Source: Gemmatimonadota bacterium (GTDB taxonomy: Bacteria > Gemmatimonadota > Gemmatimonadetes > Longimicrobiales > Longimicrobiaceae). From it: a DNA stretch of 34,524 bases. This document shows positions 3,149 through 30,785 of this stretch, one piece after another. The stretch's first letter is position 1. The number at the start of each line of letters is the position of its first letter. The stretch covers positions 1 through 34,524 of the forward strand of contig SKRI01000230.1 of NCBI GenBank assembly GCA_007118565.1, given 5' to 3'. Position numbers and translations under genes: made by a program. A model generated the notes under the pieces. That model ran no database searches. It saw nothing but the letters and a program-made list of their open reading frames with translations, and was not told the origin of the DNA.

Positions 3149-4429
3149 TCAGGCGGCGACCGGCTCGCCGGCGGGAAGCTCCGAGGTGAGGCCCCGCGCG
3201 GTCAGGATCAGCTCGATGGCCGCGCCGATCTTGTTGTTCGGGGTGGATGCCCCGGCGGTGAGCCCGATGGAGATCGGCCCCTCCGGAAGCCAGTCCTCGG
3301 CCGTCGTCTCCGGGGTATTGAACGGGGTCCCGTTCGGCTTGAACCGAATGGTTCCGGACTCGGGATCGATGCAGGCCGCATCGGACACATGGTAGGTAAT
3401 GGTGTGCTTCGCGCACAGCACCGCCAGATGGTTCGTGTTGGAAGAATTGTATCCGCCGATCACGACCATGATGTCAGGCGGCCCCTCCTCCGAGGCCATC
3501 ATCTCCTTCACCGCGTCCTGCCGCTCCTGAGTCGCGGAGCAGATTGTGTCGAAGGAGCGGAAGTGCTCGTCGATGTCGAACCCCGCCTGACTCCCGAATC
3601 GGCGAGCGAGCGACTTGCCGACCTCGTCGGCGATGGCCAGCGACTCGCTGGAGAGCATGGTCGTCTGGTTCGCGACGCCGATCCTCGCCAGGTCCCGGTC
3701 CGGATCGAAGTCGGGAGATGCCTTGTCGCGGAAGTGCTCGACAAACGCCTCGCGGGAGAGAGCGCCGGGCTTTCCCTCGATGTAGTCCATGACCAGCCGC
3801 GCCTCGTCCATGTCGAGGACGACGACGTACTTTCCGTTCGGATACTTGCTCGCCTGGCTGGCCGTGGCCTCCGTCTCCTCGTGATAGTACTTCCCGTGGA
3901 TGAGGGCGGTGTAGCCATCCCGGGCGTACTGCTCCACCCGCTTCCAAACCACCAGCACGCTCCCGCACGTGGTGTCCACGAGCACGGCCCCTGTCTGCTT
4001 GAGCCGCTCGAAGTCCTGGAGGGTCACGCCGAAGGCGGGAAGGATGACTACGTCGTCCTCCGTCAGTCCGGAGAAGTCGAAGCGATCGATGCCGTGCTTG
4101 CCCGCCGCGGGGTAGAGAAACTCGATCCCCATCTCCCGCATCCGCTGGTTGACGTGCGGGTTGTGGATGATCTCTCCGACCAGGAAGATCCGTTTGTCCG
4201 GGAACTGCGTGCGGGTCTCGTACGCATAGTCGACAGCGCGATCCACTCCGTAGCAGAACCCGAAGGCCTCGGCCAGACGGACGGTGACGGCCTTTTCCCC
4301 CTCCCCGAAGGTGCGGGTGTGCCCCTCCTCCCGGATGGCATCGACGAGCCCGCTGTGGTAGTCGGCCTGCACCACGGCCTCGATCTCCTTTCGGCGACCG
4401 AACCCGCGGCGAAAATATCGATCCGTCAT
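3149..4429 (-). CDS. ispH: 4-hydroxy-3-methylbut-2-enyl diphosphate reductase (cyanobacterial/plant type)
   Basis: Last enzyme of the MEP isoprenoid pathway: an iron-sulfur enzyme that reduces HMBPP to IPP and DMAPP. The three cluster cysteines are in FGFCYGV (Cys59), VDTTCGSV (Cys155) and TICSATQERQ (Cys297). The active-site histidine motifs EIIHNPHVNQR and HGKYYHEE are present, as is the Thr-Gln-Glu of ATQER. At 426 residues it is longer than the ~315-residue E. coli form, and its N-terminal extension (YFRRGFGRR, then a ~35-residue lead to the first Cys) matches the cyanobacterial/plant class. I place the start at the ATG at 4429. A GTG at 4504 would add 25 residues, but that stretch has clearly lower third-position GC than the gene. 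It is transcribed away from the GT51 gene and ends at the bidirectional terminator. Confidence 0.95.
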   Translation of the reverse strand: MTDRYFRRGFGRRKEIEAVVQADYHSGLVDAIREEGHTRTFGEGEKAVTVRLAEAFGFCYGVDRAVDYAYETRTQFPDKRIFLVGEIIHNPHVNQRMREMGIEFLYPAAGKHGIDRFDFSGLTEDDVVILPAFGVTLQDFERLKQTGAVLVDTTCGSVLVVWKRVEQYARDGYTALIHGKYYHEETEATASQASKYPNGKYVVVLDMDEARLVMDYIEGKPGALSREAFVEHFRDKASPDFDPDRDLARIGVANQTTMLSSESLAIADEVGKSLARRFGSQAGFDIDEHFRSFDTICSATQERQDAVKEMMASEEGPPDIMVVIGGYNSSNTNHLAVLCAKHTITYHVSDAACIDPESGTIRFKPNGTPFNTPETTAEDWLPEGPISIGLTAGASTPNNKIGAAIELILTARGLTSELPAGEPVAA

Positions 4430-4486
4430 CTGCCTGTTGGCTTCGCGGAGACCGGCTCGAAGCCCGAGCCGGAAGTTGACCCGAAA

Positions 4487-4500
4487 GTGATGTGGATCAC
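4487..4500. promoter_or_regulatory. CRP/FNR-like inverted repeat (GTGA-N6-TCAC)
   Basis: The sequence reads GTGATGTGGATCAC, matching the core half-sites of the CRP/FNR-family operator TGTGA-N6-TCACA with exact N6 spacing but without the outer T and A. It lies in the 203-base region between the divergent ispH and GT51 genes. A motif this short can occur by chance and no CRP-family regulator is encoded in the window. Confidence 0.25.
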
Positions 4501-4632
4501 GCACACCGAAGGTGATCCGTCGACGTTTACGGTAATCAGACCGCTCCGGGGCCGCAACCGCAGTGACCCCATGGGGTATGCGAATTGCGCCCGGCCGAGC
4601 CGAACGGGACAGGGAAAGGAGATCTCCAGCGC

Positions 4633-5484
4633 ATGCGTATGAGACTGAAGAGAGAGAAGGGCGGGGCGAGCGCCGCGAACTGGGGGGGAGGTCGAGTGGG
4701 ACGGCGGTCCGGGACCGCGACGGCGGAGCCCCGCGGGGACGTGGGCGCCCTCGTCGTGATCACCGCCCTCGTGCTCGGCGGGGTCGCGGGGTTCGCCTTC
4801 GGCGCGGATCGCGAGATCGGCGAGGGTGTCGTTCAGCAGTACGCTGAAGCGCAGACCCGGGAGGACTGGACCGCGCTCGATGCCCTGCCCGAGTTCGTGC
4901 CGCGCGTCTTCCTGACCGTAGTGGATCCCGGATTCGAAGACCGCCGGTTCATCACCGGCGCCGAAGACGAGAGCGCGGTGAGCCGGGAGCTGGTCCGGCA
5001 GGTCCATCGCCTCGACGCGACGCCCGGCGGTCGGGCGCGCGAGTTCGTCATGGCTCCTCTGCTCGAGGGTCGGCTGAACAGGCGACAGCTCCTCGAGCTC
5101 TACCTCAACCGGGTGTGGATGGGCCGCGACGGTGAGTGGAACATCTACGGGATCACACAGGCCTCGCGGGAGTATTTCGGAAAGGAGCCGGCTGAGCTCA
5201 CCCTTAGCGAGACGGCCACCCTGGCCGGCCTCCTCCTGCCACCCCGTATGGAGAGCCCCGCCGATCATGTGGGCGCGGTCGGCGCTCGCCGGAACGAGGT
5301 GCTGAGGCAGCTACTGAATGTCGGGGTGATCGACGAGGAAGCGTTCCGTGAAGCCGCCGGCGAGCGCCTCGGCTTCCAGCCCGGGGTCCAGTTCGCGCCG
5401 ATGGCACCGCCGCCCCCTCGCGAGGACGAGGAGGCGGCGGTGATCCGGCTCAACCGTCCGATTCAGCCGGTCACCGAGGACTGA
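4633..5484 (+). CDS. Degenerate GT51 (peptidoglycan glycosyltransferase-like) membrane protein
   Basis: 283 residues. The ATG at 4633 is preferred because AAGGAG (4616-4621) precedes it; an earlier ATG at 4585 is in frame. One N-terminal membrane segment (GALVVITALVLGGVAGFAF, about residues 37-55) anchors it. The middle resembles the GT51 domain of class A penicillin-binding proteins: FEDRRF matches motif 1, and LLEGRLNRRQLLELYLNRVWMG and GITQASREYFGKEPAELTLSETATLAGLL match the later motifs well. The region between motif 1 and the usual QGGSTITQQ motif is collapsed and that motif is replaced by ESAVSRELVRQ, so catalysis is doubtful. There is no transpeptidase domain; the C-terminus is about 60 polar residues. 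It may be a cell-wall polymerase relative with a regulatory or scaffolding role. Confidence 0.75.
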   Translation: MRMRLKREKGGASAANWGGGRVGRRSGTATAEPRGDVGALVVITALVLGGVAGFAFGADREIGEGVVQQYAEAQTREDWTALDALPEFVPRVFLTVVDPGFEDRRFITGAEDESAVSRELVRQVHRLDATPGGRAREFVMAPLLEGRLNRRQLLELYLNRVWMGRDGEWNIYGITQASREYFGKEPAELTLSETATLAGLLLPPRMESPADHVGAVGARRNEVLRQLLNVGVIDEEAFREAAGERLGFQPGVQFAPMAPPPPREDEEAAVIRLNRPIQPVTED

Positions 5485-5908
5485 TCTCCGAGGCGTGTAG
5501 CTGGACCAGCGTCCACTCACCCTCCTGGCGGGTCATCACCCCGGTGATTAGGACCTCCTCCCGCTCGTCCACCGCATCGAACGACGCACCGAACCAGCCG
5601 GTGTTCGCGGAGGGGCTAACCGCCACCGTGATGCGCCCCGTAGGGACGAGCGGGCCCCCGTCCTCGAGCGGCCCGGGCGCAATGCGGGCATCCGGTCCGT
5701 GGGTGAAGACGTTCAGCGCATCCGTCCCCTCCCCGGCCTGGAGGAGCGCCGCCATCGAATCCACCTGCGCCCTGACCTCCTGCTGGGCTGCGTCCAGGTC
5801 CGGACCGGCGGCATACCTGCCCTCGTAGTATTCGGGGGGCGTGGGCTCCACCTTGCAGGCGGAGACGAGGAGAAAGAGCAGGATGGCTGCGGTCGGGAGC
5901 CGGCGCAC
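5471..5908 (-). CDS. Hypothetical lipoprotein
   Basis: 145 residues from a GTG at 5908 with GGAGGT just upstream. The frame stays open to 6001, but the extra 31 residues would put the signal peptide internally. From the GTG the protein begins with Arg-Arg, a hydrophobic run (LPTAAILLFLLVSAC) and a clear lipobox Cys, so it is a predicted envelope lipoprotein. The mature part has a helical segment (LDAAQQEVRAQVDSMAALLQ), then a beta-rich stretch including RITVAVSPSANTG and EGEWTLVQLHASEI that resembles SnoaL/DUF4440-like small alpha+beta folds; that likeness is weak. Its 3' end overlaps the last 14 bases of the convergent GT51 gene. Function unknown. Confidence 0.7.
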   Translation of the reverse strand: MRRLPTAAILLFLLVSACKVEPTPPEYYEGRYAAGPDLDAAQQEVRAQVDSMAALLQAGEGTDALNVFTHGPDARIAPGPLEDGGPLVPTGRITVAVSPSANTGWFGASFDAVDEREEVLITGVMTRQEGEWTLVQLHASEISPR

Positions 5909-5911
5909 GGC

Positions 5912-5917
5912 ACCTCC
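5912..5917 (-). promoter_or_regulatory. Shine-Dalgarno site deciding the GTG start at 5908
   Basis: GGAGGT on the minus strand lies 3 bases before the GTG. Spacing is short, but no other start in this frame has both a ribosome site and a signal peptide directly after it. Confidence 0.55.
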
Positions 5918-6019
5918 GGAATAGGGATGAGAATCGATGCGGCACCTTGGCCAGCGCGGCGCATCAAATGAGTTTAACGCCTTCGGCATATCCACTGTCA
6001 AGACTGAGGCAAATCGCGG

Positions 6020-6448
6020 ATGCTCTTCCGGCTCTTCCTGCTCTTCACGATCACTCCGATCGTCGAGCTCTACCTGCTCATCCGGATCGGAGGAGCCATC
6101 GGGGCGCTCCCGACCATCGCCATCGTTGTCATCACCGGGCTAGTCGGGGCGTGGCTGGCGCGTCTGGAGGGGGCCCGGGCCTGGGGCGACCTCCGGCGCT
6201 CCCTTGCCGGGGCGCAGTTTCCCGGCAACGCGATCCTCAATGGGATCGCGGTATTCATCGGCGGCGCCTTCCTGCTGACGCCGGGCGTGCTGACCGACCT
6301 CCTCGGCATCGCCCTTCTCGTTCCCGCGACCCGGCGCCCCATCATGCGAATGGTCCGGGAGCGCTTCATGAAGCGTCTCGAGAAGAGGGGAGATGGGGAG
6401 ATCGAGGTTCGCTACTGGCGGCAGGAGCCGCCAACGGACGACCGATGA
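6020..6448 (+). CDS. fxsA: FxsA family membrane protein
   Basis: 142 residues. The N-terminus LFRLFLLFTITPIVELYLLIRIG and the following GALPTIAIVVITGLVGAWLARLEG are characteristic of FxsA/YtxG-like proteins, with the P-I-x-E motif inside the first membrane segment. The central AFLLTPGVLTDLLGIALLVPATRRPIM gives a further membrane segment with the family's conserved TPG and the RR that follows. The tail is soluble and charged (MKRLEKRGDGEIEVRYW). In E. coli, FxsA overproduction relieves exclusion of phage T7 by the F plasmid PifA protein; the normal role is unclear. It is divergent from the lipoprotein at 5908 and 137 bases upstream of the next gene. Family assignment is strong. Confidence 0.93.
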   Translation: MLFRLFLLFTITPIVELYLLIRIGGAIGALPTIAIVVITGLVGAWLARLEGARAWGDLRRSLAGAQFPGNAILNGIAVFIGGAFLLTPGVLTDLLGIALLVPATRRPIMRMVRERFMKRLEKRGDGEIEVRYWRQEPPTDDR

Positions 6449-6519
6449 TGCGACTCGCGCCATCCTACGCCGCCGGCGACTCCGGAACAAGCACCTGCAC
6501 TTCCGGCTATATCATCTGC

Positions 6520-6549
6520 TTGACGGACGGTCGGGAAATGTGGCATTCT
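6520..6549 (+). promoter_or_regulatory. Possible sigma70-type promoter
   Basis: TTGACG (6520-6525, five of six consensus bases) is followed after 18 bases by CATTCT (6544-6549, weak -10). It sits in the 137-base gap upstream of the unknown protein at 6586. The -10 match is poor, so this is a candidate only. Confidence 0.28.
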
Positions 6550-6585
6550 CCGACCCCAAGCCTTCTCTCAGCGAGCGCTGCCTAG

Positions 6586-7296
6586 ATGATCTGGTTCGGC
6601 GAAAACTTCGTTCCCGTCTTCACCCCGCGTGACCGCGAGGGCGAGTTCTCGCGCATGCAGCGGGGGATCCGGTGGGTCGCCGAGCGGAGGCCGGGGGCCA
6701 CCGGAGACGAGCTCGTCTCCGCGCTCAGCGAGAGCGGCTGGGTATCGACCGAGACGGCACGCCGGCTCCTCCCGTACTTCCGCGACTTCGATGCGGACCG
6801 GTACTTCGCGGAGCGGCTCCGCCGACTCTCGTTCCGCGGCGAGCTCGCCGTCGACGAGTTCAGGCGCCGGATCGGGCAGGTGATGGTGGACCTGACGGAG
6901 GAGGGAGAGAAGGTGGTGCTCCCCGGTGGTGCGGAGGCGGTTCGCTTCCGTGCCGGCGATCGGGAGGGCCTCGTCTTCGCCTTCCCCGAGGTATCCTACG
7001 CCGTCGATCCGGAGCTACGCGCCGCCGTTCCGGACGTGCTGGAGCACTTTCCGCACACGGTCGTCCTCGTCGCCCGCAACTTCCGGCCGGGGGCGGAGGC
7101 CGCCTTCCGGAGCCTCTTCCGCGGTCAGGAGATCGCCCCGACCACGGTGACGGTGAACCGGCTCCTCGGGCTCCGCGCAGTGGCCCTCCGCTACCGCACC
7201 CCCGCCGAGCGTGTGATGGACCTTCTCTGTAGCGGCGGCGGTGTGTCCACCCGGGCGGTGGCCCGCCTGGGAGATCGGGAGCTCGCCGCGGCCTGA
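6586..7296 (+). CDS. Protein of unknown function with possible N-terminal winged-helix
   Basis: 236 residues, no signal peptide or membrane segment. Residues about 25-65 (RWVAERRPGATGDELVSAL, then ESGWVSTETARRLLPYF) look like a helix-turn-helix or winged-helix fold. Residues about 85-110 form a helix and a strand (VMVDLTEEGEKVVLPGG). The centre alternates strands and helices (GLVFAFPEVSYAVDPEL, TVVLVARNF, EAAFRSLFRG) and the C-terminus has a single Cys (LLCSGGGVSTRAVARLG). No catalytic motif is recognised. The start has no evident ribosome site; an internal ATG at 6655 is an alternative. It ends only 6 bases from the 3' end of the convergent gyrA, with no terminator between. Codon use matches the neighbours, so it is a real gene. 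Confidence 0.75.
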   Translation: MIWFGENFVPVFTPRDREGEFSRMQRGIRWVAERRPGATGDELVSALSESGWVSTETARRLLPYFRDFDADRYFAERLRRLSFRGELAVDEFRRRIGQVMVDLTEEGEKVVLPGGAEAVRFRAGDREGLVFAFPEVSYAVDPELRAAVPDVLEHFPHTVVLVARNFRPGAEAAFRSLFRGQEIAPTTVTVNRLLGLRAVALRYRTPAERVMDLLCSGGGVSTRAVARLGDRELAAA

Positions 7297-12557: not shown

Positions 12558-13480
12558 TCCGTCCTGCACGGCTGCGGGATGGCGCCGGAATCGCGCTGGT
12601 GGCGCCGGCTGGACCCCTCCCGCCCGGAGCGCTCGAGCGAGCGGTGGAGCAGGTCGAGGCGTGGGGGTGGCGGCCGCTTCCGGGTCCGCACGCCGCCGGC
12701 TCCCACCACGGGTATCTGTCCGGGAGGGACGAGGATCGGCTCGGGGATCTGCAGGCAGCGCTCTTCTCTCCCGCGGTGGACGCCGTCTGGTGTCTGCGCG
12801 GCGGGTACGGTACCATGCGGCTCCTGCGGCGGATCGACTGGCGGCCGATGCTGGAGCGCCCGCGGCCGCTGATCGGGTTCAGCGACAACACCGCGCTGCA
12901 CCTGGCCCTGGTACGGCGGGGGCTGGTATCCTTTCACGGCCCGCACGCCGCGGCCGACCCGTTCCCGCCCTTCACGGGGGAGCGGCTCCGGGAGCTCCTC
13001 GTCCGCCCGGAGCCGGCGGGCGTCCTCCCGCTCCCGGAGGAATCGGGGGAGCGCCCGGCCGCGATCCGCGGCGGCGCTGCCGAGGGGCCGCTGGTGGGGG
13101 GCAACCTCGCCCTGCTCGCGGCCACGCTGGGGACGCCGGACGCATTGCGGGCCGAGGGCGCCATCCTCTTCTTCGAGGAGGTCGGAGAGCCGGCGTACCG
13201 GATCGACCGGCTCCTCACCCAGCTCGAGCTGGCCGGCGTGCTGGACGCGGTCGCCGGCGTGGTTATCGGAGGCATGACGGAGGTGCCTATCCCTACGAGG
13301 GACGACATTCCCCCCGTCCGCGAGGTCCTCGCCGGCCGACTCCACGACCGCGGCGTTCCGGTGCTGACCGGGTGCCCCGTCGGCCACATCGACGAGATGT
13401 GGACGCTCCCGCTCGGCATTCGCGCCCGGCTGGATGCGGACGCCGGCACCCTCGAGCTCCTGGAAGCGGCGGTACGTTGA
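12554..13480 (+). CDS. ldcA: LD-carboxypeptidase (S66 peptidase family)
   Basis: 308 residues, the normal size. S66 enzymes remove the terminal D-Ala from murein tetrapeptides during peptidoglycan recycling, and some relatives cleave microcin C7-type compounds (MccF). The nucleophile is Ser110 in LIGFSDNTALH; the glutamate of the triad is Glu208 in LFFEEVGEPAYRIDR; the histidine is His278 in GCPVGHIDEMWTLPLG. The N-terminal GIALVAPAGPL and the CLRGGYGTMRLL motif (residues 80-91) are also conserved. There is no signal peptide, so it is cytoplasmic. Translation is coupled to the MFS exporter by an ATGA overlap, a pairing that could also fit a self-immunity role; recycling is the default reading. 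The adenosyltransferase gene follows after 22 bases. Confidence 0.93.
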   Translation: MIRPARLRDGAGIALVAPAGPLPPGALERAVEQVEAWGWRPLPGPHAAGSHHGYLSGRDEDRLGDLQAALFSPAVDAVWCLRGGYGTMRLLRRIDWRPMLERPRPLIGFSDNTALHLALVRRGLVSFHGPHAAADPFPPFTGERLRELLVRPEPAGVLPLPEESGERPAAIRGGAAEGPLVGGNLALLAATLGTPDALRAEGAILFFEEVGEPAYRIDRLLTQLELAGVLDAVAGVVIGGMTEVPIPTRDDIPPVREVLAGRLHDRGVPVLTGCPVGHIDEMWTLPLGIRARLDADAGTLELLEAAVR

Positions 13481-13502
13481 TCCTACGACTGGAGGCAGGG
13501 AG

Positions 13503-14075
13503 ATGAAGATCTATACGCGCACCGGTGACCGGGGCGAGACCGGCCTCTTCGGCGGCGGCCGGGTTCCGAAGGATCACGCGCGGGTGGAGGCGTACGGAGC
13601 GGTCGATGAGCTCAACTCGGTGCTCGGCGTGGCCCTCTCCTCCCTCTCCGCATCGGCGCGGCATACGGTGGGAGACAGAATCCGGCAGATCCAGGCCGAC
13701 CTCTTCACCCTGGGGGCGCAGCTCGCCACCCCGGAGAAGGAGGACGGCAGCCGGCCCGCCCACCTTCCGGAGCTCGAGGACGATGCGATCGAGCGGCTCG
13801 AGGGGGCCATCGACCGCCTGGAGGCGGACCTGCCGCCGCTCCGGAACTTCATCCTGCCGGGCGGTACCGGTCCTGCAGCACATCTCCACCTGGCCCGGAC
13901 TGTCTGCCGCCGGGCGGAGCGCCGGGTGGTTCACCTGGGCCACGAGGCGGTTATCCCGGAGGAGACGGTGGTGTACCTCAACCGCCTCTCGGACTACCTC
14001 TTCACCGCGGCGCGAGCCGTCAACCGGCTGGCGAACGTCCCCGACATCTCCTGGACACCCCGGGAGGAGACGTAG
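13503..14075 (+). CDS. Cob(I)alamin adenosyltransferase, PduO type
   Basis: 190 residues. It transfers the adenosyl group of ATP to cob(I)alamin to make adenosylcobalamin. The N-terminal ATP-binding motif is clear (YTRTGDRGETGLFGGGRVPK), followed by VEAYGAVDELNSVLG. The later motifs are LPGGTGPAAHLHLARTVCRR, AERRVV and LNRLSDYLFTAARAVN, all expected of the trimeric PduO helical bundle. GGAGG at 13491-13495 gives a well-spaced ribosome site for the ATG at 13503. It follows the LD-carboxypeptidase on the same strand and precedes the bacilliredoxin by 54 bases. No B12-dependent enzyme is in the window. Confidence 0.95.
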   Translation: MKIYTRTGDRGETGLFGGGRVPKDHARVEAYGAVDELNSVLGVALSSLSASARHTVGDRIRQIQADLFTLGAQLATPEKEDGSRPAHLPELEDDAIERLEGAIDRLEADLPPLRNFILPGGTGPAAHLHLARTVCRRAERRVVHLGHEAVIPEETVVYLNRLSDYLFTAARAVNRLANVPDISWTPREET

Positions 14076-14129: not shown

Positions 14130-14546
14130 ATGGCATACAGTGAGCTTCTGGTTCGTCCGATGCGTGAAGAGCTGACCCGGCTCGGCGTGGAGGAATGGCG
14201 CAGCGCCGAGGAGGTTCGGGACGCGCTCTCCGATCCGGAGGGGACCACCCTGATCGTGATCAACTCGGTGTGCGGATGCGCGGCGAGGAACGCGCGCCCC
14301 GCGGTCGCGCTGGCGCTGGACGACGGCAAGCGGCCGGAGCGGACGGCCACCGTCTTCGCCGGGCAGGACGCGGAAGCCACGCAGGAGGTACGGAACCACC
14401 TGCACGGTTATCCCCCCTCGTCACCCTCGATCGCCCTGCTCAAGGACGGCGAGGTCGTCCTCATGCTCGAGCGTCACCGGATCGAGGGCCGCACCGCCGA
14501 GGAGATCGCCGGCGACCTTCGGAGTGCTTTCGACGAGCACTGCTGA
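14130..14546 (+). CDS. Bacilliredoxin, BrxA/BrxB (YphP) family
   Basis: 138 residues, the usual length. Thioredoxin-fold protein that removes bacillithiol from mixed disulfides on proteins. The active-site motif is Cys48-Gly-Cys50 in LIVINSVCGCAARNARP, the CGC signature of the family, and the start (YSELLVRPMREELTRLGV) is also typical of it. The conserved C-terminal part SPSIALLKDGEVVLMLERHRIEG forms the remaining thioredoxin strands. Its presence suggests the organism makes bacillithiol, although no bshA/B/C is in the window. An AGGA site precedes the ATG. A stem-loop lies just after the stop. Confidence 0.94.
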   Translation: MAYSELLVRPMREELTRLGVEEWRSAEEVRDALSDPEGTTLIVINSVCGCAARNARPAVALALDDGKRPERTATVFAGQDAEATQEVRNHLHGYPPSSPSIALLKDGEVVLMLERHRIEGRTAEEIAGDLRSAFDEHC

Positions 14547-17340: not shown

Positions 17341-18516
17341 TCACCGCTCCTCCCACCGGGGCGTCGGAAAGCGTGGCTCCCCTGTCGCCACCTCCTCGGG
17401 CCAGACCACCACCTTCTCCCCATCCTGCCACTGGACGAAGAGCCCCTGGTTGGCGGTCTGGTAGCCGCGCTCATCCACGGCAAAGTCGCCGAAGATCGTC
17501 TGCGTCTCGAGGCTCAGCAGCACATCGCGGAGCGCTTCCGAATCGAGGCTCCCTGCCTGCCGCGCCGCCTCCATGAAGAGCTGGCAGCTGCCGTACGCCC
17601 CCGCCGCGTGAAAGCTCGGCGGCTGACCGAACTCCCGCTCGTACGCCTCGGCGAACTCGTTCACGCCGGGGTTGGGAAGGCTCGGCTCCCAGGCCGACAG
17701 GCCATACGCATACTCCGCCTTCTCCCCGAGCGCCGCCTGGAACTCGGCCACCGCCCCCGACGTCCCGAACATCGCCACGTTAACACCGTGCTCCTCCATC
17801 TGGTGGACAACGGCGATGAAGTCGTCGAGCGCCGAGGCAGCCATGCCCAGCACCTCGACATCGTTCTCCCGGATCCTCGTCAGAAGTTCGGAGAAGTCCT
17901 CCGTTCCCGAGGGGTAGGTCTCGTGGAGGACCACCTCCAGTCCACGCTCCCGGGCCAGCTCGGCCGCACCCGCGCCGGCGGCTCGCGGGAAGAGCTGGTC
18001 CTCCTGGAGAATCGCGACGCGCCGCAAGCCGTTCTCATCGGCGATGTCGATGAGCCCCGCCAGGAAGAGCTCGGCAGGCGGGAGCACCATGAAGAGGTAG
18101 CGCCGGCCCTGCTCCCAGATGGAGGTGGTGGCCGCCAAGGGGGAGATGTGCACCATCCGGTGCCGCTCGGTTACCGGGGCCACGGCCTCCGTGAGCGTCG
18201 AGCCGTAGGGGCCCATGATGGCGTCGACCCCCTCCTCGGTGATCAGCCGCTCGTAGAGGCGGGGCGCCAGCTCCGCGTCGGACTCATCGTCGTGGATCAC
18301 GAACTCGATCTGCCGGCCGAGGAGGCCACCCTCCGCGTTGACGTGCTGCTGGCAGAGGCGGTAGCCGTTGCGCGCGGGGATCCCCTGCGTGGCATACGCG
18401 CCGGTCTCGGACATGGTGGCGCCTATCCGGGTCGGGCTCTGCTCGTTGATCGCCTCCGGCGGTGCGGAAGCGCAGGCGGCGAGCAGGGGGACGAGCAGGA
18501 GCAGCTTCATTCTCAT
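17341..18516 (-). CDS. LivK-like ABC transporter substrate-binding lipoprotein
   Basis: 391 residues. The signal peptide MRMKLLLLVPLLAACAS has a clear lipobox (LAAC), so this is a lipid-anchored periplasmic protein. The start of the mature part, RIGATMSETGAYATQG, and the pattern GYRLCQQHVNAEGGLLGRQ match the type I periplasmic binding fold of branched-chain amino-acid and amide receptors. Other family blocks are IEFVIHDDESDAELAPRLYERL, DAIMGPYGSTLTEAVAPV and FAEAYEREFGQPPSFHAAGAYG. No permease or ATPase gene for such a transporter is in the window, so it may be an orphan receptor. It is 96 bases from the FAD subunit gene upstream and 13 bases from the VOC gene downstream. The ligand is unknown. 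Confidence 0.9.
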   Translation of the reverse strand: MRMKLLLLVPLLAACASAPPEAINEQSPTRIGATMSETGAYATQGIPARNGYRLCQQHVNAEGGLLGRQIEFVIHDDESDAELAPRLYERLITEEGVDAIMGPYGSTLTEAVAPVTERHRMVHISPLAATTSIWEQGRRYLFMVLPPAELFLAGLIDIADENGLRRVAILQEDQLFPRAAGAGAAELARERGLEVVLHETYPSGTEDFSELLTRIRENDVEVLGMAASALDDFIAVVHQMEEHGVNVAMFGTSGAVAEFQAALGEKAEYAYGLSAWEPSLPNPGVNEFAEAYEREFGQPPSFHAAGAYGSCQLFMEAARQAGSLDSEALRDVLLSLETQTIFGDFAVDERGYQTANQGLFVQWQDGEKVVVWPEEVATGEPRFPTPRWEER

Positions 18517-18612: not shown

Positions 18613-19617
18613 TCACCCCATCTCCCGCAGCGCCCGGCGCACGTACACCGGCACCATGGCGCGGCGCCACTCCGGATCGACGATGATGTTCTCCAGCGGC
18701 CGGCTCTGCCGGTGCGCCGGCTCGGCCACCGCATCGGTGACATCGGAGAGCGGGTGTCCGGTGGCGATCTTGTCGAGCCCCGCCACGACGCGCGGGCGGG
18801 AGCCGAGGGCGGAGACCACCATCTTCATCTCCCGCACCCTCCCGTCCTCTCCGAGATCGGTGGCGATGGCTATGGAGAGGAGCGGGAAGTCGATCGACTT
18901 TCGCTGCCGCACCTTGCGATAGGCGGTGCGGACGCCGGAGCCCGGAAGCGGAACGCGGATGCGCCGCACCAGCTCGTTCCGCCGGCGCACGCTGTTCCAA
19001 ATCCCGTCGGCCACGAACCAGTCGGCGAGCGGCACGGTCCGCGGACCGTCGGCGGAGACGAGGTCAACCACCGCGCCCAGCGTCAGGAGGGCGGGCGGCG
19101 TGTCGGCCGAGTGGGCGGCCACGCACTTCTTCCCCACCTTGGTGACGTGGCAGACGTCGCCGTCCTTCTTCAGGCAGTAGCCGAGCGCCTTCCGCCAGAA
19201 GTGCGACTGGTTGTAGTAGGTGCAGCGCGTGTCGAGGCAGAGGTTACCGCCGATCGTCCCTGAGTTGCGGATCTGCGGGCCGGCCACCTGGCCGGCGGCC
19301 TCGGCCAGCGAGGGCGTGTGCCGCCGCACCAGCCGCGAGGCGGCCACGGCCGAGAGGGTCTCGCAGGCGCCAATCACCAGCTCCCGAGCCTCGTCCTCGC
19401 CGGTAGCGTTCCCCTCCCCGTCCCCGTAGCTGATTCCCCGCAGCTCCCCGATCCCCTTCAGCCCCACCACGTGGTGCGGGGTGAAGAGCCCGTGCTTCAT
19501 GTTGGGCATGAGGTCGGTGCCCCCGGCGATGGGGATCGCGCCCTCGTCCTCGAGCAGGTCGAGAGCGGCGGAGAGCCTGTCCGGACGGTGGTAGCGGTAA
19601 TCGTGGAGGCGGAGCAT
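18613..19617 (-). CDS. FAD-binding subunit of a xanthine-oxidase-family enzyme, 4-hydroxybenzoyl-CoA reductase beta-like
   Basis: 334 residues. The FAD-binding motifs of the medium subunit are present: IPIAGGTDLMPNMKHG (about 28-42) and AGPQIRNSGTIGGNLCLD. It also has four cysteines, Cys132, Cys148, Cys156 and Cys165, spaced 16, 8 and 9 residues apart. As I recall, the [4Fe-4S]-binding cysteines of Thauera aromatica 4-hydroxybenzoyl-CoA reductase beta are 122, 138, 146 and 155, exactly the same spacing. Ordinary xanthine-oxidase FAD subunits lack this insert. RKVRQRKSIDFPLLSIA is the family's C-terminal motif. The enzyme would pass electrons between FAD and a molybdenum subunit through [2Fe-2S] centres, but no such subunits are adjacent: the upstream gene is an MBL hydrolase and the downstream gene a binding protein. 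The substrate is therefore open. Confidence 0.9.
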   Translation of the reverse strand: MLRLHDYRYHRPDRLSAALDLLEDEGAIPIAGGTDLMPNMKHGLFTPHHVVGLKGIGELRGISYGDGEGNATGEDEARELVIGACETLSAVAASRLVRRHTPSLAEAAGQVAGPQIRNSGTIGGNLCLDTRCTYYNQSHFWRKALGYCLKKDGDVCHVTKVGKKCVAAHSADTPPALLTLGAVVDLVSADGPRTVPLADWFVADGIWNSVRRRNELVRRIRVPLPGSGVRTAYRKVRQRKSIDFPLLSIAIATDLGEDGRVREMKMVVSALGSRPRVVAGLDKIATGHPLSDVTDAVAEPAHRQSRPLENIIVDPEWRRAMVPVYVRRALREMG

Positions 19618-19713: not shown

Positions 19714-20481
19714 TTACTGCCGCGCCGAGAGGTGGTCGAGGATTGCCCGCAGGGAGCCGTCGGCGGCGGCGCGGAGCGCCGTGGGGAGATGGGGGCCATA
19801 GACCCGCTCCCGCAGCTCGTCGAGGGAGGGCGCGCCAGTGGCGGGGAGCGCCGCCTCCACCTGGGCGATCCGCTCCCCCCGGTGCGCCCGGTAGCGAGCG
19901 ACGGCCTCGGCCGGATCGGTGATCGGGGGGCCGTGCGCGGGATAGATGACCTCGGGAGCCAGCGCCTCGACCCGGTCGAGGGAGCGGAGGTAGGCGCCCA
20001 GATCCCCCTCCGGGGCAGCCACGAGCGTCGTATCGCCCTCGCCCATGAAGAGATCGCCGGCAAAGAGCGCCCCGTTCTCCGGCGCCTCCCCGCCGCTCCA
20101 GAGGAGGGAGATGTGGTCCGGCGTGTGGCCCGGCGTCTCCACCACGCGCAGCGTGCCCACATCGGTCTCGATCTCCGTCCCGTCGCGGACCGCCCCGCGC
20201 CCCCGCACCTCCGGCGAGAAGGCGCGGACAGGCGCACCGAGCCACTTTCCGAGCCGCTCCGCGCCTCCGGCATGGTCCGGATGCCAGTGGGTCACCACGA
20301 GGGTGACGGTCCGGCATCCCGATACCGCCTCCACCAGCGCCTCGAGGTGCGCCGGGTCGTCCGGGCCGGGGTCGATGATCGTCGCCCGCTCACGGCCCAC
20401 GATGTAGGTCCGTGTCCCGTCGAGGGTCATGCCCGAGGGGTTGTCGGCGCGAACCGTGGAGAGGGCAGGAGGGGGAGTCAC
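19714..20481 (-). CDS. Metallo-beta-lactamase-fold hydrolase (LACTB2/glyoxalase II-like)
   Basis: 255 residues from a GTG at 20481, 5 bases after the stop of the flavoprotein gene. Metal ligands are complete: His65, His67, Asp69 and His70 in THWHPDHAGG, His119 in TPGHTPDH, Asp143 in FAGDLFMG, and His183 in YPAHGPPI. This is the binuclear-zinc set of the MBL superfamily. The C-terminal helical extension (AHRGERIAQVEAAL, then LDELRERVYGPHL) is the kind found in LACTB2-like and related hydrolases that act on thioesters or phosphodiesters. No signal peptide. As the last gene of the amidohydrolase/methyltransferase/flavoprotein cassette it may act in the same pathway; the substrate is unknown. Confidence 0.9.
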   Translation of the reverse strand: MTPPPALSTVRADNPSGMTLDGTRTYIVGRERATIIDPGPDDPAHLEALVEAVSGCRTVTLVVTHWHPDHAGGAERLGKWLGAPVRAFSPEVRGRGAVRDGTEIETDVGTLRVVETPGHTPDHISLLWSGGEAPENGALFAGDLFMGEGDTTLVAAPEGDLGAYLRSLDRVEALAPEVIYPAHGPPITDPAEAVARYRAHRGERIAQVEAALPATGAPSLDELRERVYGPHLPTALRAAADGSLRAILDHLSARQ

Positions 20482-28594: not shown

Positions 28595-29287
28595 ATGTTC
28601 TCACGTACCACCGCGCCGCTGATCCTCGCGCTTCTCATCGCGGGGGCGGCCACCGCGTGCGCCCAGGAGGCGCAGCCCGCTGACCGGGGCGCGGCCACCG
28701 CCGGCCCGGATGCGGTCGTCGGCACCGCCGATGCCTCCCGCGCCAAGGGAGCCGAGGACGCACCCGTCCAGATCGTAGAGATCTCGGACTTCCAGTGCGG
28801 GTTCTGCCGCCGCTTCGCCGAGGAGACGATGCCGGCCGTTGACAGCGCCTACATCCAGACCGGGCAGGTCCGCTTCCTCTACATACACTACCCCCTTCCC
28901 AACCACCAGCAGAGCTGGGCCGCGTCCAAGGCCAGCCTCTGCGCGGGGGCACAGGACGCCTTCTGGCCAATGCACGACCTGCTCTTCGCTGGCCAGTCCG
29001 AGTGGTCCGGGGATCCGCAGCCGGTCGATCGCTTCCGCGCCTACGCCGATGAGGCGGGAGTGGACCGGGGCGCCTTCGACACCTGCATGGAGAACGACCA
29101 GGTGGCTTCCGTCATCGTGAACGACCTGATGCAGGTCTCCCGGGCAGGGGTCACCGGTACGCCGACCTTCATCATCAACAACGAGACGGTGGTGCAGGGC
29201 CACCTGAGCTTCGATGAGTTTTCGCAGCACATCGACGCCGCGCTGGCGGGGAACGGTGCGGCGGAAGGGGGCGAGCCCGAGGAGTAA
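28595..29287 (+). CDS. DsbA-family thiol oxidoreductase, predicted lipoprotein
   Basis: 230 residues. The signal peptide (PLILALLIAGAATAC) ends at a probable lipobox Cys22, followed by a disordered Ala/Gly/Asp-rich linker. The thioredoxin-fold domain has the redox motif Cys68-Gly-Phe-Cys71 in EISDFQCGFCRRF and the cis-Pro190 in GVTGTPTFI. The pattern matches DsbA-like proteins with an inserted helical domain (SLCAGAQDAFWPMHDLLF). Two further Cys residues (116 and 164) are in the inserted domain and could be a second pair. It is anchored on the periplasmic side and should form or isomerise disulfides. It converges on the DsbA/VKOR operon at 29360-30785, suggesting a shared function; the two proteins differ in anchoring. 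Confidence 0.9.
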   Translation: MFSRTTAPLILALLIAGAATACAQEAQPADRGAATAGPDAVVGTADASRAKGAEDAPVQIVEISDFQCGFCRRFAEETMPAVDSAYIQTGQVRFLYIHYPLPNHQQSWAASKASLCAGAQDAFWPMHDLLFAGQSEWSGDPQPVDRFRAYADEAGVDRGAFDTCMENDQVASVIVNDLMQVSRAGVTGTPTFIINNETVVQGHLSFDEFSQHIDAALAGNGAAEGGEPEE

Positions 29288-29566: not shown

Positions 29567-30030
29567 GTCGAGTTCATATCGAGGTTCGGTGCGGACGCCG
29601 GCCGCAGGCCGGTCAGGCTGAGCAGGAAGATGAGGGCGACGAGGATGGCCGACACCACACACCACTGGCACCAGGCGTGGATCACCGCCGCCTCCAGATA
29701 GGTCAGGTACGCGGAGACGACCATGGCGATGGCCGAGAGGCCAAGGAGCGCCAGCGCGATCGGGCGATGCCCCGCCCAGCGTGGCTGGAGCCCCGCCATG
29801 GCCACCCCGAAGATCGCGGCATAACCGCCCAGGCCCCAGAGCGCCACCGGCAAACCGAGGAAGTAGGCGTACTCGGAGGCCTGCACCAGGTCGCACCCGC
29901 CGAAACCGCACTGCAGCGTCCCAATTCCCCCCAGGTGGTAGAGGGAGAGGTACGCCGAGACGAAGATGCCGACCAGCGCGAGGACGGCGATCCCCATGCG
30001 CGGCCAGGCGGCCGGTGCCACGGAGGTCAC
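29563..30030 (-). CDS. Vitamin K epoxide reductase (VKOR) family protein
   Basis: 155 residues from a GTG overlapping the DsbA-like stop (GTGA, 30027-30030). Four to five membrane segments, e.g. GIAVLALVGIFVSAYLSLYHL and ALALLGLSAIAMVVSAYLTYL. The loop cysteines are Cys41 and Cys46 in LQCGFGGCDLV, followed by ASEYAYFLGLPVALWGLGGY. The quinone-facing active pair is Cys121-Gln-Trp-Cys124 in HAWCQWCVVSAIL, the CxxC of bacterial VKORs. In bacteria lacking DsbB, VKOR reoxidises DsbA and passes electrons to quinone. Coupling to a DsbA-like gene directly upstream strongly supports that role here. It is a stand-alone VKOR, not fused to a thioredoxin domain. Confidence 0.94.
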   Translation of the reverse strand: MTSVAPAAWPRMGIAVLALVGIFVSAYLSLYHLGGIGTLQCGFGGCDLVQASEYAYFLGLPVALWGLGGYAAIFGVAMAGLQPRWAGHRPIALALLGLSAIAMVVSAYLTYLEAAVIHAWCQWCVVSAILVALIFLLSLTGLRPASAPNLDMNST

Positions 30031-30785
30031 GCCTCCGGCTCAGCCGGGTCAGGGTCGTCCATTGCGCCGTTCTGCATCGCATCCTGGATTGCCGCCTCCA
30101 TCGCGCTCACCGTGAGCTCGCGCACGGGGTCACCGTTCACGAAGATGGTCGGCGTCCCCTGAACGCCCCGGGATATCCCCACCTGCAGGTGGGCGGTCAC
30201 ATCTTCCGCGTGCCGATCCGAGCGCAGGCAGTCCTCGAACGCCCGCCGGTCCAGGTTCAGCTCCCGCGCATACTGGACGAAGCTGCCGGTAGGATCGCCT
30301 TCGGCCGACCACCCCGGGCGACGCGCGTGCAGGACGTCGTGGTAGTCCCAGAAACGGTCCTGGTCGAGCGCGCAACGGCTGGCGCGAGCGGCCAGGAAGC
30401 CGTGCTCGAAGACCCCCACCAGCGGGAAGTGGTAGAACTGCCACTGCACCTGCCCCGTCTCCAGGTAGCGCTGCTTGATGACCGGGGCGATCTGCGTGGC
30501 GAAGCGGCCACAGGAGGGGCACTGGAAGTCCACGAACTCCTCGATTACCACGGGCGCGTCGGGGTCGCCGCGGGGGACCGGCTCGACCTGCTCCAGCTCG
30601 TCCGGCGTCAGGGTGAGCGGAACCGGCGCCACCGTCGGCCGGGCCTGGGTCGTGGCCTGGTACACGAGGATGCCGACTCCGATCACCGCGATCACGCCGA
30701 TCAGGAGGTAGAACGGCTTCAGCCCCGGGGGCTCCTTCCTCTCCGTCTTCTTGGTCTTGGCCGTCTTCGACCTCTTGGCAGCCAC
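30027..30785 (-). CDS. DsbA-like thiol oxidase with N-terminal membrane anchor
   Basis: 252 residues. A Lys/Arg-rich cytoplasmic start (residues 1-20) leads to one membrane segment (FYLLIGVIAVIGVGILVY, about 25-42), which places the rest in the periplasm. The thioredoxin-fold domain has Cys89-Pro-Ser-Cys92 in EEFVDFQCPSCGRF and the cis-Pro loop GVQGTPTIFVNG. The inserted helical region (ASRCALDQDRFWDYHDVLH) has a Cys which, with the one in FEDCLRSDRH, could form a second pair. First gene of the operon with VKOR and the 68-aa protein, so the direct partner for reoxidation is at hand. Transcribed away from the protein at 30935. Confidence 0.93.
   Translation of the reverse strand: MAAKRSKTAKTKKTERKEPPGLKPFYLLIGVIAVIGVGILVYQATTQARPTVAPVPLTLTPDELEQVEPVPRGDPDAPVVIEEFVDFQCPSCGRFATQIAPVIKQRYLETGQVQWQFYHFPLVGVFEHGFLAARASRCALDQDRFWDYHDVLHARRPGWSAEGDPTGSFVQYARELNLDRRAFEDCLRSDRHAEDVTAHLQVGISRGVQGTPTIFVNGDPVRELTVSAMEAAIQDAMQNGAMDDPDPAEPEA

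Follow-up and report, generated by a model that had tools for sequence, protein, structure and literature searches.

The hcrB-like gene described here very probably encodes the β subunit, with FAD and a [4Fe-4S] cluster, of a three-subunit molybdenum enzyme that resembles 4-hydroxybenzoyl-CoA reductase (HCR) and is encoded at two separate loci; this grading covers the HCR-like complex with its split loci and leaves the substrate aside. The window, i.e. the whole stretch of DNA that was analysed (34,524 nucleotides), is the complete contig C58 of a 306-contig, 93.6%-complete metagenome-assembled genome (MAG) of the phylum Gemmatimonadota, order Longimicrobiales. What appeared to be an orphan gene now reads as part of a complete enzyme encoded at two loci, and the point in the lineage at which the operon broke up has been located. 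A near-perfect link to a divergent ring epoxidase, together with exclusion from genomes that possess fused PaaZ, provides a testable lead to an alternative module for aromatic-CoA degradation in a phylum of which very few members have been cultured.

The FAD subunit and its four-cysteine insert

The product of hcrB contains the Pfam domains FAD_binding_5 (E = 7.8e-41) and CO_deh_flav_C (E = 5.3e-8), and its fold is that of the FAD subunits of the xanthine oxidase family. The top match in the Protein Data Bank is 1rm6_B, the β subunit of Thauera aromatica HCR, with an E-value of 5.5e-59 compared to 3.2e-28 for the runner-up. The alignment runs from end to end (residues 4-328 of the query, 4-315 of 1rm6_B), and 1rm6_B is also the best structural match of the predicted fold (TM 0.86). 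Cys132, Cys148, Cys156 and Cys165 pair with Cys122, Cys138, Cys146 and Cys155 of 1rm6_B and superpose on its cluster-ligand positions without a gap in the insert, so that the FAD subunit has four cysteines at exactly the HcrB spacing. The preliminary description had proposed this correspondence, and with it an HcrB-type identity and a [4Fe-4S] signature, from HcrB residue numbers that turned out to be right. The four are the sole invariant cysteines among 21 HcrB homologues, which are 37-72% identical to the query and come from Gemmatimonadota, Acidobacteriota, Planctomycetota, Myxococcota, SAR324 and other groups; the nearby Cys127 varies. The motif C-x15-C-x7-C-x8-C is present in 104 of 117 extracted hcrB stretches, the other 13 being cut off (12) or split in frame (1). 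In the AlphaFold model the loops around the putative cluster (residues 130-149 and 157-164) have pLDDT values below 50, so the assignment rests on the sequence, which supports binding of a [4Fe-4S] cluster by the four cysteines.

The insert is less exclusive than had been supposed. Other FAD subunits of the xanthine oxidase family had been said to lack it, but those of two further three-subunit members of the family, PaoABC of E. coli (5g5g_B) and the Methylobacillus aldehyde oxidase (5y6q_B), possess a cysteine-bearing insert in the same place. Their cysteines are spaced differently, however, and the match to the query is far weaker (E = 1e-21 and 3e-28, respectively, versus 6e-59 for HcrB).

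The idea that the gene is a relict, left behind after the rest of the enzyme was lost, draws on the window's having no partner genes and on the failure to find PaaA/C in the genome. It is nevertheless extremely improbable. The reading frame is intact, the cluster cysteines are kept, single-copy partners are encoded elsewhere in the genome and hcrB is retained across the order Longimicrobiales. Furthermore, divergence from relatives is biased to third codon positions (0.35-0.44 vs 0.15-0.20), so selection acts on the HcrB protein. Nor does anything point to a solitary flavoprotein with a novel function, another option that had been raised. Damaged copies of hcrB do occur in other genomes: there is a frame change in L054:10001-10981 and an in-frame TAA in G246:C14:20891-21871, and in G246 a further, partial match to hcrB lies on C7.

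Table 1. Features of the window and of contig C187 (locus L087).
Feature	Position	Strand	Basis or remark
hcrB-like gene (FAD-binding, [4Fe-4S]-signature subunit), 334 aa	18613..19617	-	Pfam domains, 1rm6_B alignment, homologue alignment, fold match
Insert with codons of four putative [4Fe-4S] ligands	19123..19224	-	1rm6_B alignment; invariance in 21 homologues
Cys132 codon	19222-19224	-	End of hcrB insert
Cys165 codon	19123-19125	-	End of hcrB insert
MBL-fold hydrolase, upstream of hcrB	19714..20481	-	Not part of the enzyme; G006, of the same family, has a homologue close to hcrB
Downstream neighbour of hcrB: LivK/UrtA-like periplasmic binding protein	17341..18516	-	Not found beside hcrB in the examined loci of relatives
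Bacilliredoxin (Disulph_isomer, BrxA/B-like)	14130..14546	+	Homologue divergently beside hcrC in most intact f3 hcr loci
Cobalamin adenosyltransferase	13434-14075		Near hcrB, as is bacilliredoxin; both near hcr in G042 too
hcrC	L087 (C187) 4156-4662		[2Fe-2S] γ subunit
hcrA	L087 (C187) ATG 4659 to 7154		Mo α subunit; overlaps hcrC by 4 nt
XdhC-like gene in two parts	L087 1039-1863 and 719-1042	-	Beside hcrC-hcrA
MocA-like gene	L087 1856-2452	-	Beside hcrC-hcrA

The genes next to hcrB are, as had been noted, those of an MBL hydrolase and a LivK-like receptor, and no gene for a molybdenum or [2Fe-2S] subunit is found in the window. Most relatives do not keep these genes as partners of hcrB. The hcrB locus of G006 has MBL, FAD-reductase-like and amidohydrolase genes in common with the window; a LivK/UrtA-like gene was not found near hcrB in the loci of relatives that were examined. 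The hba genes of Rhodopseudomonas form an uptake and activation set for 4-hydroxybenzoate, and on this model the LivK-like gene and an AMP-ligase of the window were considered as such a set. The candidate was dropped because relatives do not keep the two genes near hcrB and the ligase looks FadD11-like. Elsewhere in the window two genes of the DsbA/thioredoxin-4 family lie close together on opposite strands (28595-29287 and 30027-30785).

Partner subunits and the split operon

Whole-genome searches found one PF00941 (FAD) protein, which is the window's own HcrB, one PF01799/Fer2_2 ([2Fe-2S]) protein and one PF02738/MoCoBD_1 (Mo) protein. The genes of the latter two form an hcrC-hcrA pair on contig C187, so that both the γ and the α partner expected for HCR are encoded in the genome. 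The term 'orphan', used for hcrB in the preliminary description, thus no longer applies, and its suggestion of a subunit working with distant partners fits. Since each of the three is present in a single copy genome-wide, they were assigned to one enzyme by elimination and would assemble into one complex. The XdhC-like maturation protein beside the pair consists of two overlapping genes (L087:719-1863), of which the upstream one encodes the C-terminal part and the other the N-terminal part.

The best models for the three subunits are TIGR03195, TIGR03193 and TIGR03194, HcrA and HcrC scoring best against those of the HCR α and γ subunits. HcrA matches 1rm6_A with 636 bits, compared to 303 for the next family, and is 43% identical to it over 752 columns. 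Tyr326, Arg358-Gly-His360-Gly, Tyr521 and Glu726 (1rm6_A numbering) are invariant in HcrA of the window genome and in all 78 full-length homologues, whereas CoxL of CO dehydrogenase and QorL of quinoline oxidoreductase differ from HcrA at positions 326 and 360. Glu726 is presumably the base in HCR, and we take Tyr326, Glu726 and also His360 to have catalytic roles; the HCR structure paper of Unciuleac from 2004, which PMC12771579 cites, is said to describe those of Tyr326 and Glu726. The HcrB-type cluster spacing and these active-site residues favour electron entry and dehydroxylation of the HCR kind.

The enzyme is close to HcrABC of T. aromatica (1rm6/1sb3) in its three subunit types, the spacing of the β insert and the α positions 326, 360 and 726. 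It differs in that identity is about 37% for β (structural alignment) and 43% for α, the β gene is unlinked from those of γ and α, and there is an association with an O2-dependent epoxidase. Furthermore, all three proteins miss the NCBIfam equivalog cut-offs for HCR (TIGR03193/03194/03195: 176 against 258, 874 against 995 and 280 against 405 bits, the last being HcrB). For this reason the enzyme is not named a 4-hydroxybenzoyl-CoA reductase, and its substrate may differ from 4-hydroxybenzoyl-CoA. It is most likely an HCR-like aryl-CoA dehydroxylase. In a tree of HcrA the Thauera protein and a SAR324 sequence (L082) share a long branch, the placement of which is unsure, and no deep relations were concluded from it.

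The two loci were followed through 61 relatives, which include the families f1 (that of the window), f2 and f3. Orthologues of hcrA and hcrB are both present in 45 genomes and both absent from 11; one genome has only hcrA and four have only hcrB, three of these four being less than 90% complete. In f3, a distance of 0.9-1.3 kb separates hcrA from hcrB in 23 of 24 genomes, the exception being G030, where hcrB is at a contig start; an AmiA-like amidase gene lies between them, and a bacilliredoxin gene is positioned divergently upstream of hcrC. In f2 the two genes share a contig in three of eight genomes (with gaps of 0.7, 3.1 and 7.6 kb); the other five have them on separate contigs. In f1 they are on different contigs in all 13 genomes that have both, even where the contigs are large (805 kb and 232 kb in G006). 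The order hcrC-hcrA-hcrB is found in Planctomycetota, Polyangiaceae, Myxococcota and one further Gemmatimonadota group (L080, L081, L083, L041). Linkage in other phyla and families indicates that the linked arrangement is probably ancestral and the split in f1 derived.

The AmiA-like (N-acetylmuramoyl-L-alanine amidase-like) gene that separates hcrA from hcrB in f3 follows hcrA in f1 (L061:8716-9999, L153:9881-11056). DUF559 and repeated Uma2-type putative endonuclease genes occur within or just after the hcrC-hcrA locus of f1 (L147:7815-11324, L146:14092-16410) and are possible agents of the operon's break-up. One Longimicrobiales hcr locus, in identical gene order, recurs on two contigs (L052:10001-11014 and L053:10001-11014) of RHO3_bin_65, a MAG that bears the label Deltaproteobacteria; this is probably mis-binned or duplicated sequence. 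No relatives were found in the plasmid collection searched.

Association with a divergent ring epoxidase

The 12 genomes among the 61 that have no hcrB orthologue also lack PaaA/PaaC (PF05138; Fisher p = 7e-12, uncorrected for kinship), and the only other one without PaaA/C is the window genome. The 12 represent ten genera in three families, so hcrB and PaaA/C have likely been lost in parallel several times. As a control, 4-hydroxyphenylpyruvate dioxygenase (HPPD) was compared with hcrB in the same genomes; 5 have both, 44 hcrB only, 3 HPPD only and 9 neither (p = 0.18). Joint disappearance of catabolic genes thus does not by itself account for the link to Paa. A paaA-paaD-paaB-paaC cluster is located about 0.5-6 kb from hcrB in several genomes of f1.

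The survey was extended to 249 Gemmatimonadota genomes, in which PaaA/C were classed by best E-value as canonical (<1e-89) or divergent (about 1e-32 to 1e-64) and a close hcrB orthologue was defined by E<1e-80. Close hcrB and divergent PaaA/C, in counts that are phylogenetically non-independent, occur together in 75 genomes, hcrB only in 3, PaaA/C only in 8 and neither in 163. Five of the eight have a more distant hcrB, and with such copies included 80 of the 83 divergent-class genomes have hcrB. Close hcrB is found in none of the 89 genomes with canonical PaaA/C, most of which belong to one family. Fused PaaZ tracks the canonical class (88 genomes shared, one only in each) and never accompanies the divergent one. 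Both kinds of PaaA/C are present in family f4. Divergent PaaA aligns to E. coli PaaA, including the diiron motifs, and scores 121 bits against an equivalog cut-off of 280; for PaaC the values are 87 and 133.

The resemblance to PaaABCDE plus PaaZ extends to a PaaA/B/C/D-like set that accompanies hcr across the phylum and in places adjoins hcrB. It ends at the sub-cut-off scores, the missing fused PaaZ and the window genome, which contains hcr and gives no match to PaaA/C or fused PaaZ, the components of the canonical phenylacetate pathway. Its PaaA/C genes would be either lost or hidden in an assembly gap. Generic ALDH domains are present in every Longimicrobiales relative, so the absence of fused PaaZ alone is no proof of a gap in the pathway. 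Overall there is good evidence that hcr and the divergent epoxidase form a functional module, from phylogenetically non-independent counts and with the window genome itself devoid of PaaA/C. A Box-type benzoyl-CoA route was dropped because the model of BoxB, the benzoyl-CoA epoxidase, has no match above cut-off in any of the 61 relatives.

Proposed reaction and alternatives

In the model that we favour, an ancestral hcrC-hcrA-hcrB operon would have been broken in f1 and the separated subunits kept. The β subunit would be supplied from C58, and the γ subunit, with its two [2Fe-2S] clusters, and the molybdenum-containing α subunit from C187, together with the XdhC- and MocA-like maturation genes. 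Ferredoxin or another low-potential carrier may reduce the [4Fe-4S] cluster of β, from which electrons would pass to FAD, through the two [2Fe-2S] clusters and on to the Mo-pterin site, where an aromatic acyl-CoA would be reductively dehydroxylated. The product would then enter CoA-bound ring degradation, in most relatives with the divergent PaaABCD-type epoxidase. The direction of the reaction is the least certain step. Reductive dehydroxylation is given slightly better than an even chance, oxidation of an aldehyde or another acyl-CoA intermediate is a minority prospect, and the remainder is left to other reactions.

An enzyme that is strongly reductive makes an odd companion for an O2-dependent epoxidase. 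One rival to the model is an oxidative molybdenum hydroxylase in another route of ring degradation. Such an enzyme would oxidise the CoA-bound semialdehyde (or its equivalent) after epoxidation by the divergent PaaABCD-type enzyme in genomes without fused PaaZ, a role suggested by the way close hcrB tracks divergent PaaA/C, by the confinement of fused PaaZ to the canonical class and by the proximity of hcrB to the paa cluster. Most members of the xanthine oxidase family oxidise their substrates, and PaoABC also has a cysteine insert. We consider this explanation unlikely all the same: the exact HCR spacing of the cluster cysteines and the HCR-like Tyr326 and His360 indicate HCR chemistry, the ubiquitous ALDHs could perform the semialdehyde step, the window genome retains hcr without PaaA/C, and the phylum counts are uncorrected for kinship, with canonical genomes mostly from one family. 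Somewhat less probable still is an ordinary HCR that serves the anaerobic benzoyl-CoA pathway and whose operon has been dispersed. HCR subunits are the best matches of all three proteins, and some Gemmatimonadota MAGs are reported to contain genes for the degradation of benzoyl-CoA (PMC10581226). However, all three scores fall short of the HCR cut-offs, the SAR324 homologue is 54.5% identical to Thauera HcrA compared to about 43% for the window clade, and hcr is associated with a divergent epoxidase instead of known enzymes of benzoyl-CoA metabolism.

The HCR-like enzyme and the epoxidase may belong to a hybrid aromatic-CoA pathway, not yet described, of Gemmatimonadota outside the canonical-Paa group. 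One module, consisting of the HCR-type molybdenum enzyme and the divergent PaaABCD-type epoxidase, would replace PaaABCE and PaaZ, the molybdenum enzyme either making the epoxidase substrate by dehydroxylation or oxidising the ring-opened semialdehyde instead of PaaZ. This proposal is tentative, and we rate its chances at a little under even. No mention of Gemmatimonadota was found in a survey from 2026 that treats the phenylacetate pathway (PMC13186573), and a literature search of partial coverage found no paper on HCR in the aromatic metabolism of Gemmatimonadota or Longimicrobiales. Five genomes of f4 and f8 (G070, G076, G102, G131 and G198) combine divergent PaaA/C with a more distant hcrB, about 40% identical, and most f4 genomes with a distant hcrB are without PaaA/C, so that the hcrB family appears to comprise two or more functional groups.
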